Below, piece after piece: positions 12,660 through 16,849 of a stretch of DNA of 64,000 nucleotides. The notes below the pieces were generated by a model, which worked only from the letters and a program-made list of their open reading frames with translations, searched no databases and was not told where the DNA came from. Source of the stretch: Rhodospirillaceae bacterium (GTDB lineage: Bacteria > Pseudomonadota > Alphaproteobacteria > Rhodospirillales > Rhodospirillaceae). Each line of letters starts with the position of its first letter. The first letter of the stretch is position 1. Where the stretch lies: NCBI GenBank assembly GCA_028822445.1, contig JAPKDQ010000004.1, forward strand, positions 1 through 64,000, given 5' to 3'. A program made the translations under genes and the position numbers.

Positions 12660-13298
12660 ATGAAACTCGTCTTTACTCCAAATCCAGAATACATCCATAA
12701 GGTCCTCGTGGTTGCGTACGAGGGGGGCATTGTTGATCGCCTGGAATTCCAGAGAACCCGGCCGTTTGACGGGGAAACGATTTGGGATTTCCATCCCATG
12801 GGTAAGGTTCCAGCTTTATCGCTGGATAACGGGGACCCTCTTTATGGTGGTTTGGTGATTTGTGAGTATCTCGATTCGTTATCAACAACCGGAAAGCATA
12901 TGTACCCCACAGGAGACGCTCGTTGGCCGGCCCTGCGTCAAGTGACTTTGGGTGATGGCATGTTTGATGCCACGACCCTGCTGCGGGTTGAGGGGTGGCG
13001 AGATAAGAAAGACTGGAACCTGGACTACATGCTTCGCGAGCGTCGGAAGATGATTGGATGTCTAGATCGGATGGAAACGGAAACGCCTCAGTTTAAAGAA
13101 GTTGACTTCCACATAGGCCATATCTGCATGGCTGGAGGGCTGAGCTACTTGGATTTGAGAAACCCAATCCAAGAGTACGCCATCGTAGATGGCGATGATG
13201 CGTTTGATTGGCGGGAAGGACGTCCAAACCTCTCTTCGTGGTATGACGAGATAATAAAACGCCCCTCGCTTGAGTGGCGTTTTATTATGGACGAATAG
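12660..13298 (+). CDS. Glutathione S-transferase family protein
   Basis: 212 residues. The N-terminal thioredoxin-like domain (about 1-80) begins KLVFTPNPEYIHKVLV and includes MGKVPAL with the cis-proline and CEYLDSL at the end. The C-terminal all-helical domain follows. The usual active-site Ser is not obvious in TPNPEY, so catalysis may differ. The last 16 codons are embedded in a 13-bp perfect hairpin (13251-13288), which constrains the C-terminal sequence. It lies alone between the divergent MFS operon and the convergent SapC gene. The substrate is unknown. Confidence 0.85.
   Translation: MKLVFTPNPEYIHKVLVVAYEGGIVDRLEFQRTRPFDGETIWDFHPMGKVPALSLDNGDPLYGGLVICEYLDSLSTTGKHMYPTGDARWPALRQVTLGDGMFDATTLLRVEGWRDKKDWNLDYMLRERRKMIGCLDRMETETPQFKEVDFHIGHICMAGGLSYLDLRNPIQEYAIVDGDDAFDWREGRPNLSSWYDEIIKRPSLEWRFIMDE
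13251..13288. terminator. 13-bp perfect hairpin inside the 3' end of the GST gene
   Basis: ATAATAAAACGCC (13251-13263) pairs perfectly with GGCGTTTTATTAT (13276-13288). The 12-base loop itself can form ctc/gag pairs. A-rich and T-rich arms give it intrinsic-terminator properties in both directions. It ends 8 bases before the GST stop codon is reached, so termination on the + strand would occur at or before the end of the coding sequence. It can also stop the leftward SapC transcript. Confidence 0.75.
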
Positions 13299-13355: not shown

Positions 13356-14141
13356 TTAAGCGTCAGCAGAGTTCTGTGCTTCTGGAAGGCGCCCCATAAT
13401 AAGTTCCCAGTTGTTTAATGATGCAACATGGAAATACATGGCCGCGAGCCATCCCTTTTTCCGCCACTCTAAGAATGTTTTATCGGGAATTTCGCGCAGT
13501 TTTTGCTCGTTAATTGAAGCGAAAGCGCCAACGTCTATTTTCTTGCCATCAGGCAGGTCGATGGCCAGGGAGCGCTCTTCAACGAGATCTGAGTCTCTTA
13601 GCATCTCAGAAAATTCTGCGGTCGCCCCATACGCCCCATGAAACTGTTGACATATTTCAAGGGCATCCGTGACTACCTGCGTTTCTTTTTCACCCTCGAA
13701 GAGTGCGCTTGCGTTGGAATGAGCCGAGTTTGACTCGTGATCAATACCCAGTTGCAATCTTTCGTCTTCTGGTTTGCCTAAGAGAATAAAGGGATACCGC
13801 CTTACGTAAGCCGGAACATAACAGAAGCGCTCCCAATTGCCTTCATCGTCGACGAATACGTTCTGGTCATTTCTTAATCCCAAGGCAACCGTTGGCACCA
13901 TCTCTTTACCTACGAAAACGATGGGGTAGTGACGGGCAGCAAGTACGAATTCTGGAAGGGTAATGGGAACTGCGTTGGTTTTTTGCGTGAACGTGAAATC
14001 ATTGGCAGGCCGCATTTTGAAGTCACCGTGGCTTTCTGCCGTGACGGGGCGGGGCTCGTGATAAAACAGCGGCGGTTGCATGCGCTCTTCATCGTTTTGA
14101 TTGGTGTCCGCAGCGTGCGTTTCATTTGATTGATCAGTCAA
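13356..14141 (-). CDS. SapC family protein
   Basis: About 261 residues if translation starts at TTG 14141, which has AAGGAAGG 8 bases upstream; the frame is also open to 14162. After an acidic, Gln/Asn-rich N-terminus, the SapC domain (PF07277) runs from about residue 50 to the end: ALRLRNDQN-type strand, FCYVPAYVRRYPFIL, LFEGEKETQ, SALAIDLPDGKKI-like and an EWRKKGWLAA..HVASLNNW ending. SapC was first described as part of a paracrystalline surface layer locus in Campylobacter, yet the domain is widespread in proteobacteria without S-layers and its function there is unknown. The gene stands alone. Confidence 0.85.
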   Translation of the reverse strand: MTDQSNETHAADTNQNDEERMQPPLFYHEPRPVTAESHGDFKMRPANDFTFTQKTNAVPITLPEFVLAARHYPIVFVGKEMVPTVALGLRNDQNVFVDDEGNWERFCYVPAYVRRYPFILLGKPEDERLQLGIDHESNSAHSNASALFEGEKETQVVTDALEICQQFHGAYGATAEFSEMLRDSDLVEERSLAIDLPDGKKIDVGAFASINEQKLREIPDKTFLEWRKKGWLAAMYFHVASLNNWELIMGRLPEAQNSADA

Positions 14142-14339
14142 TGTTCTATCCTTCCTTGCCAAGGCTTAATGCCAGGGCTATTTCATTATTTGAGCGCAAA
14201 ATAAAGGCTTCTGCGGCTGGGTCAACGGGTGGATGTCTCTGGTAGTGGCCAGGGAAGTCAAAGGGTAAAGGTGTATGGAGGTTCGTTGTCTGTGTAGGAT
14301 CAGACATCTAGAGGCGATCCGTTGAAGTGAGGTGTTGCA

Positions 14340-15071
14340 ATGTTATCGGGCAAATCGGTTCTTGTTACGAATGTCTGCCACTTTGTGGGAGTATCAGCGG
14401 CTCAAGTCCTTCGGGCATACGGGGCCTCCGTTCGGTGTCATGATGCAAGTTTCAGAGATAAAGAAAAAGCCTCCGCCTTTGAGGCAAAGAATCCAGGACT
14501 TGCAGCGCTATCTGCTCCATCGACAACTGAAGCTGTGGATATGGCCGTGTCTGACCTAGGCTCTCTGGATATTGCAGTTATTAACGACTTTTTCCCGGCC
14601 GTGCGTGCTCCAATGGGTGAGGCGACGACAGAAGAATTTCGCAAAGGCTTAGAGGCATTGATGGTCGTTCCGTTCGAAACGGCTTCTGCGGCAGCTCGTC
14701 ATATGAGACCAAATAAGTGCGGAAAAATGATTTTTGTAACCTCTGCAGCCCCATTTCATGGCTTGCCAAATTACAGCATGTATGCGGCTGGCCGGGGGGG
14801 GGCAAATGCCATGGCTCTGTCGATTGCCAAGGAGTTGGCTCGCGATAATATTCAGGTTAACGCTGTTGCCCCAAACTATGTCGAGAATGAAAGCTATTTC
14901 CCGCAAGAGCTGCTGGCCGACGAAAAGGCCCTCGCTAAGATGATCAGTAAAGTACCCCTCGGGAGGTTAGGGAAGCCCGAAGAAGTATCAGAGATGATCG
15001 CGTTTCTTGCTTCTGACAAGGCAGATTTTATTACAGGACAGATTATCCCGGTCGCTGGCGGCTGGGCTTAG
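14340..15071 (+). CDS. Halohydrin dehalogenase-like protein (SDR fold)
   Basis: 243 residues in the short-chain dehydrogenase fold, but without the NAD(P)-binding glycine motif. Instead the N-terminus reads TNVCHFVG: the halohydrin dehalogenase fingerprint T-x4-F-x-G (T10, F15, G17), where the cofactor loop is replaced by a halide-binding site. The catalytic set is S135, Y148 and R152 in exact S-x12-Y-x3-R spacing, with Arg where SDR reductases have Lys. CHDASF, NDFFPA and TSAAPF also resemble known HheC-type enzymes. Such enzymes release halide from vicinal haloalcohols to form epoxides and can open epoxides with cyanide or azide. GAGGTG precedes the ATG at 7 bases. It stands alone. Activity is inferred from motifs. 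Confidence 0.85.
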   Translation: MLSGKSVLVTNVCHFVGVSAAQVLRAYGASVRCHDASFRDKEKASAFEAKNPGLAALSAPSTTEAVDMAVSDLGSLDIAVINDFFPAVRAPMGEATTEEFRKGLEALMVVPFETASAAARHMRPNKCGKMIFVTSAAPFHGLPNYSMYAAGRGGANAMALSIAKELARDNIQVNAVAPNYVENESYFPQELLADEKALAKMISKVPLGRLGKPEEVSEMIAFLASDKADFITGQIIPVAGGWA

Positions 15072-15250: not shown

Positions 15251-16849
15251 ATGACAGGTTCTGATCTTCTTAGGCCGTTGTCTTTTTTGGTCCTATCGAT
15301 TGCAACCCTTCTTACTAGCGTGCCCGCGCAGGCGGAGATGGTGTTTCACCGTGGGAACATTGGTGAGCCTGATTCGCTAGACCCGCATCTGACTACCAGC
15401 CAGGGCGCCGCAGCCATTATTTTTGATATGTTTATTGGCCTAACGACGGTTGATTCCAAGGTGAACGTCATTCCAGGGGCTGCGGAAAGCTGGACGGTTT
15501 CTGAAAATGGTAAAAAGTATGTTTTTACTTTGCGCGAGGGCATGCAGTGGTCTGATGGAACGCCCGTAACAGCGGGTGATTTTGAGTACGCCTTCAAGCG
15601 GATGCTAGATCCTGCTACCGCATCGCGCATCGCGCCCATGTTCTATATGATCGAGAATGCTAGATCCGTAAATGGTGGGCAGATGTCGGTGGATAACCTG
15701 GCGGTGATGGCTATTGATGACCGTACCTTAGAAATTAAGCTCAATGCACCGACACCGTTCTTTCTCGAGCTTATTGTTCACCGTTGTTTCCCTGTGCCAC
15801 GCTGGGCCATCGAGAAGCATGGCAGGGAATGGACCCGGGCTGAAAATATTGTCGTTAACGGTGCATTCAAATTAGAGGAATGGGTGCCGCAAACGTCCGT
15901 TAAGGTTGTTCGCAACCCTAAGTTTTTCGACGCGGATAGTGTCGCGCTTGATGCGGTTGTCTACTACACGACGGAAGACCTCTCGGCAGCGTTTAACCGT
16001 TATCGCGCTGGCGACCTTGATATGATTATTTCTTTCCCGCCGTCTCAGCTTGACTGGATAAAAGAGAACTTGGACGGTGACTTGCGTATGACGCAGAACT
16101 TGGGTCTTGAATACATCACTTTCAATACGGAGAAGGCTCCGTTTGATGACCCACGGGTTCGTTTAGCGCTCAGCATGGCATTGGATCGGGAAACGCTTAC
16201 AAACAGGGTTATGCGTGGCGGTGAGGTAGCGGCTTATAGCCTTATTCCGTTGGGTTCGCGAGCGGGGTATGCACCCGCCTTTGCAGACTATCGTAACCAG
16301 TCGCAAGCCGAACGTAATTCACGGGCGAAAGCACTTCTAGCTGAGGCTGGGTATGGGCCTGATAATCCTCTGTCGTTTAGTTTTAGATACAACACGCAGG
16401 AGGTTTTGCGGCGTGTTGCAGCAGCAGCAGCAGCCATGTGGCAGCGTGGATTAGATGTAAACGTTAGCTTGCTAAACAGCGACCTAAACGCTTTGAACGC
16501 TGACCTTCGGAATGGGGACTATGAGGTGGCGCGATACCAATGGTTTGGTGAGCATCGCGACCCGTCGACGTTTCTGTACCTTCTTGAGTCTGAGGCTGTT
16601 GGCGATAATCACTCGAAATACAATAACCCTGAGTACGACGCGTTCATGCAGCAGGCCTATGCCTCTGCAGATGTGGAACAACGGAAGCGCTTGATGGCGA
16701 AAGCGGAACGTATTGCTATGGACGCGGCACCAATTGTGCCATTGAATTTTTACGTTGGCAAAAGGCTTGTAAAACCGTTCGTGAAAGGACTGGATGATAA
16801 TGTCCGGGGCATTAACCTTAGTCGATACGTTTCTATAGACCGGCCCTGA
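15251..16849 (+). CDS. Oligopeptide-type ABC substrate-binding protein (SBP family 5), orphan
   Basis: 532 residues with a Sec signal peptide (about 1-29, SVPAQAEM). The family 5 periplasmic-binding fold is clear: GEPDSLDPHLTTSQGA near the mature N-terminus, LREGMQWSDGTPVTAGDFEYAFKR, and DDPRVRLALSMALDRE in the middle. The ending LNFYVGKRLVKP and Y..SIDRP resembles OppA/MppA. It would deliver oligopeptides or similar ligands to an ABC permease, but no permease or ATPase genes lie nearby. AAAGGATC precedes the ATG. It is convergent with yaaA, with only 3 bases between the stop codons. Confidence 0.9.
   Translation: MTGSDLLRPLSFLVLSIATLLTSVPAQAEMVFHRGNIGEPDSLDPHLTTSQGAAAIIFDMFIGLTTVDSKVNVIPGAAESWTVSENGKKYVFTLREGMQWSDGTPVTAGDFEYAFKRMLDPATASRIAPMFYMIENARSVNGGQMSVDNLAVMAIDDRTLEIKLNAPTPFFLELIVHRCFPVPRWAIEKHGREWTRAENIVVNGAFKLEEWVPQTSVKVVRNPKFFDADSVALDAVVYYTTEDLSAAFNRYRAGDLDMIISFPPSQLDWIKENLDGDLRMTQNLGLEYITFNTEKAPFDDPRVRLALSMALDRETLTNRVMRGGEVAAYSLIPLGSRAGYAPAFADYRNQSQAERNSRAKALLAEAGYGPDNPLSFSFRYNTQEVLRRVAAAAAAMWQRGLDVNVSLLNSDLNALNADLRNGDYEVARYQWFGEHRDPSTFLYLLESEAVGDNHSKYNNPEYDAFMQQAYASADVEQRKRLMAKAERIAMDAAPIVPLNFYVGKRLVKPFVKGLDDNVRGINLSRYVSIDRP

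Follow-up and report, generated by a model that had tools for sequence, protein, structure and literature searches.

A gene very probably encoding a halohydrin dehalogenase in a Rhodospirillaceae genome

The gene and its diagnostic motifs

The first 64,000 nucleotides of contig JAPKDQ010000004.1 from a Rhodospirillaceae bacterium (assembly GCA_028822445.1), here called the window, carry a gene whose sequence and predicted model indicate that it very probably encodes a halohydrin dehalogenase (HHDH), an enzyme turning chlorinated or brominated alcohols into epoxides (Table 1). According to PMC11976700, HHDHs are defined by two motifs, T-x4-[F/Y]-x-G near the N-terminus (motif 1) and S-x12-Y-x3-R (motif 2), both also given in the review PMC4989007. 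A pattern scan found both exactly, with T10-x4-F15-x-G17 reading TNVCHFVG and residues 135-152 reading SAAPFHGLPNYSMYAAGR, which places S135, Y148, and R152 in the catalytic positions. The complete HHDH fingerprint that an earlier note on this DNA had described is thus present, and the local similarities it listed (TNV.HF, CHD.SF, NDxF, and TSA.PF) are visible in the alignment with HheC. When the protein was shuffled 200,000 times, both motifs, with motif 1 confined to the first 25 residues, arose in 12 cases (6e-5).

Table 1 Features of the window at the putative halohydrin dehalogenase gene
Feature	Position	Strand	Remarks
Glutathione S-transferase-like (GST) gene, conserved neighbour	12660..13298	+	
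sapC-like gene (PF07277), divergent neighbour	13356..14162	-	
Conserved intergenic block, fits a sigma-70-like promoter for sapC	14198..14225	-	Alignment of 8 loci and promoter scan
Putative halohydrin dehalogenase gene, nearest the A/C-type HHDHs	14340..15071	+	243 aa, ATG to TAG
HHDH motif 1 (residues 10-17, TNVCHFVG), where SDRs have their glycine-rich nucleotide loop	14367..14390	+	
HHDH motif 2, S135-x12-Y148-x3-R152, putative catalytic triad	14742..14795	+	

The same scan bears on the relation of the protein to ordinary short-chain dehydrogenases/reductases (SDRs). Neither the SDR nucleotide-loop pattern TG-x3-[GA]-x-G nor the pattern S-x10-14-Y-x3-K matched the protein, and R152 stands at the place of the lysine. 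For comparison, seven translations were scanned out of the 18 other SDR matches in the same genome; neither HHDH motif occurred in any of these seven paralogs, all of them carried Y-x3-K, and three matched the strict glycine pattern. That the remaining four also miss the glycine pattern counts against reading much into its loss, which makes the missing pattern weak evidence alone and the arginine the telling difference. The HheC sequence contains one Y-x3-K match by chance, elsewhere in the protein. Judged by sequence only, the loop carrying motif 1 replaces the SDR nucleotide loop and would line the predicted halide pocket.

A wider search returned 374 stretches encoding a relative, of which the best 80 were kept. 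In an aligned set comprising the window protein and 43 sequences hand-picked from these 80 loci, both motifs stood at the right positions in 43 of the 44 sequences, and motif 2 alone in all 44. Both motifs were found anywhere in the match in 79 of the 80 kept loci, which had been chosen for similarity, so that the description of HHDHs as 'rare' is valid only in a relative sense. The sole exception in both sets, L047, has S for T in motif 1. A distant relative in the HHDH clade that is not part of the aligned set (L022; G034:C2:38039-38752, 1501-2214 on the minus strand) retains motif 1, Ser, and Arg but has Pro at the position of the catalytic Tyr, and its protein is possibly inactive or repurposed.

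Sequence, fold, and phylogenetic relatives

In the family libraries, the protein is seen only as an SDR, as had been expected of an automatic call: the Pfam families PF13561 and PF00106 scored above their cut-offs, and NCBIfam gave 196 matches, of which the 25 listed all fell below their own cut-offs. In a sequence search against the PDB, the ten best matches were all HHDHs, several of them HheC variants, with scores from 229 bits (6a41) down to 130 bits (8oxf), while the best NAD(P)-dependent SDR reached 102 bits. The AlphaFold model, computed as a monomer, has a pLDDT of 92.2 and an SDR-like Rossmann fold; HHDHs top both fold lists, including the fifteen best Foldseek matches, and the model superposes on 6a41 with 1.5 A over 243 residues. 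The computed tests leave the HHDH reading unrefuted, with HHDHs ranked first by both sequence and fold.

A phylogeny was computed from 59 rows, namely 51 HHDH rows (with HheC, HheA2, and 6a41) and eight ordinary SDRs, seven of them from the same genome. Within this sampling, from which the HheB, HheD, HheE, HheF, and HheG types as well as HheA3 and HheA5 (alphaproteobacterial enzymes named in PMC4989007) are absent, the HHDH rows separated from the SDRs with a branch support of 100/100 and in 100% of 200 bootstrap trees. The window protein thus groups with characterised HHDHs outside the included NAD(P)-dependent SDRs; a position among such SDRs is what the earlier note had named as refuting its reading. 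It lies inside a 13-row clade (98/98), 6a41 falls among Reyranella proteins, and HheC, HheA2, and L022 group on long branches (93/93), and the branching order among the main HHDH groups is poorly resolved. An earlier tree of 65 rows, which included the mistranslated row L119, gave the same split between HHDHs and SDRs with a support of 0; the 59-row tree was computed after removal of L119 and of five rows that were duplicates or near-duplicates.

Judged by sequence, the protein adds a member to a known family and is nearest to the A/C-type HHDHs. Among the matches listed, its identity to solved structures is 46% at most, reached end to end by 6a41, a protein described as 'dehalogenase' or 'dehalogenation enzyme' that shares both motifs yet belongs to the Reyranella branch, another branch of the tree. 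HheC from Agrobacterium radiobacter AD1 is 36-38% identical, with both motifs and the same predicted fold. However, the C-terminal extension with Trp249 that distinguishes the HheC subtype, as described in PMC4989007, is absent, since the last residue of the window protein, A243, aligns with HheC residue 245. HheA and HheA2 of the Arthrobacter type likewise carry both motifs at 34-35% identity. HheD2 (PDB 7b73) is an HHDH by function with the same general fold, but it is only 29% identical to the window protein and was no closer than FabG in the fold search; according to PMC5892878, HheD2 shares 47% identity with HheB and 30% with HheA.

Distribution and gene neighbourhood

A homolog of the gene was found in all seven searched genomes of the genus, the other six being 71-88% identical. 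Beyond the genus, eight of 54 further relatives gave a match at E <= 1e-30, including the genome encoding L022, and six of 150 genomes sampled across the order, its own genome counted, gave a match at E <= 1e-45. The gene is under purifying selection, because synonymous change is far above non-synonymous change: dN/dS was 0.07 in the comparison with the nearest relative and 0.10 in a second pair, the other 13 of the 15 pairs being saturated at synonymous sites.

Gene order was compared across 84 distinct loci, which remained from 95 after the removal of 11 duplicates; the counts are lower bounds, as several flanks are short. Gene calling missed the HHDH gene in seven of the 95 loci. The order GST, divergent sapC, and HHDH is kept in nine of the 84, flanked at a greater distance by ADH and DUF1838 genes. 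In 34 loci, mostly of the Reyranella type, the HHDH gene is divergent and adjoins a UbiE-like methyltransferase gene; Reyranella-type loci L069-L114 place it beside ubiE-, ubiB-, coaBC-, and dut-like genes, while 23 loci of the 84 show a dipeptide-type ABC permease gene pair following it on the same strand (all named from translations). One sapC ortholog, at G009:C8:130143-130922, was reported by the search with one in-frame TAA. The conserved intergenic block was considered as an HHDH promoter and rejected, as the promoter that it fits points toward sapC and away from the HHDH gene; the promoter scan is weak on its own because it found three sites where 2.0 were expected from shuffles.

The downstream SBP family 5 gene, at 15251, was likewise rejected as an operon partner, since two opposite-strand genes lie between the corresponding genes in L037, and the Reyranella-type loci gave distant matches to it (24-27% identity). 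Compared with positions 10750-13208 of L037, the window between 15071 and 15251 lacks a stretch of about 2.3 kb. In L037 this stretch holds, as read from translations, a cyclase-like gene for 530 aa and a DNA-glycosylase-like gene, and the 530-aa protein has only weak, partial matches (25-30% identity) elsewhere in the genome of the window. The HHDH gene is probably chromosomal, because its contig also appears to hold suf-like and parE-like genes, again read from translations.

The surroundings differ from those of known HHDH systems. The HheC operon contains an epoxide-hydrolase gene according to PMC11976700. A Microbacterium plasmid carries an HheA-type gene (L117) that hardly any branch length separates from HheA2 in the 65-row tree; the genes on its two sides are annotated as epoxide hydrolase and glycerol kinase, and transposase genes surround it. 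At the window gene, neither this setting nor an adjacent epoxide-hydrolase gene was seen, and no HHDH pathway genes were recognised beside it. Genome-wide, nothing matched the profiles for EHN, LEH, and Trp_halogenase, other epoxide hydrolases not being searched, and no HAD type II match exceeded its cut-off.

Mechanism, alternative explanations, and role

By analogy with HheC, the protein would be catalytically active and bind halide. In the mechanism modelled on HheC (section 4 of PMC4989007), an SDR fold would lack the nicotinamide cofactor site, and the freed space would bind halide. Ser135 would hold the hydroxyl of a vicinal haloalcohol, while Tyr148, its pKa lowered by Arg152, would take the hydroxyl proton; the oxygen would then close to the epoxide, with the halide departing into a pocket that the loop of residues 10-17 lines. 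In reverse, halide or other small anions may open epoxides. In the cell, the enzyme may work alone, removing reactive haloalcohols (or, in reverse, epoxides) that it encounters in the environment. Taken jointly, the observations are best explained, in our view with high probability, by an HHDH with an SDR fold and a halide site in place of the nicotinamide site, most likely a stand-alone remover of haloalcohols or epoxides.

Three other explanations were weighed. That the gene encodes an ordinary NAD(P)-dependent SDR, such as a FabG-like reductase, with the motifs present by chance, would fit the family libraries, but it is very improbable given the arginine in place of the catalytic lysine carried by every paralog examined, the near-universal presence of both motifs in the aligned set, the fully supported split in the tree, and the scarcity of the two motifs in shuffles. 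A functional partnership in which the neighbouring GST captures the epoxide product draws on the conserved order of GST, sapC, and HHDH and on the GST ortholog outside the genus, found in 3/8 genomes with an HHDH match versus 1/46 without. However, the controls behave alike, with sapC in 5/8 versus 3/46 and ADH in 3/8 versus 1/46, so that shared ancestry is enough to account for the co-occurrence. Furthermore, two genomes have GST and sapC near each other but no HHDH at that place: G011, where HHDH is on another contig, and G022, which has no match. GST also occurs without HHDH in one relative (G022) and on a different contig from it in two others, and sapC without HHDH in three (G022, G024, and G030). 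As GST, sapC, and ADH all occur in relatives without HHDH, the neighbourhood is silent on the substrate; the GST-sapC-HHDH block looks inherited and therefore gives no pointer to a partner. The partnership, although suggestive, was accordingly dropped as improbable.

A more serious possibility, though still rather unlikely, is a member of the HHDH clade by ancestry that natively does something other than dehalogenate, such as opening epoxides with a different anion or carrying out some other cofactor-free conversion of a metabolite. It would fit the retention of the gene across the genus, the purifying selection on it, the lack of recognised HHDH pathway genes beside it, and a genome without an EHN or LEH epoxide hydrolase match, and the authors of PMC11976700 consider the haloalcohols and epoxides that they tested probably not to be the natural substrates even of HheC. 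On the other hand, the window protein and almost all aligned relatives keep the motif 1 residues together with the catalytic Ser, Tyr, and Arg, so that some haloalcohol dehalogenation should be possible.

The stand-alone detoxification role favoured here would make the enzyme a remover of haloalcohols or epoxides; among the titles listed in searches of the open-licence literature, none dealt with a physiological role of HHDHs in these bacteria. It could be speculated, tentatively, that the gene is a long-standing resident with a native role in the genus, and separately in Reyranella-type genomes, rather than a recent gene for xenobiotics. Such a role might lie in natural halohydrin or epoxide metabolism or in a reaction with a non-halide anion, and HheA and HheC linked to epoxide hydrolases may then be late recruits from this resident pool. 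HHDHs serve in making chiral epoxides and beta-substituted alcohols, yet what they act on in nature is unsettled. With orthologs at 71-88% identity and no more than 46% identity to the listed solved structures, the HHDH of this genus is a source of new enzymes, and its retention across the genus offers a system where the native role is testable by deletion.
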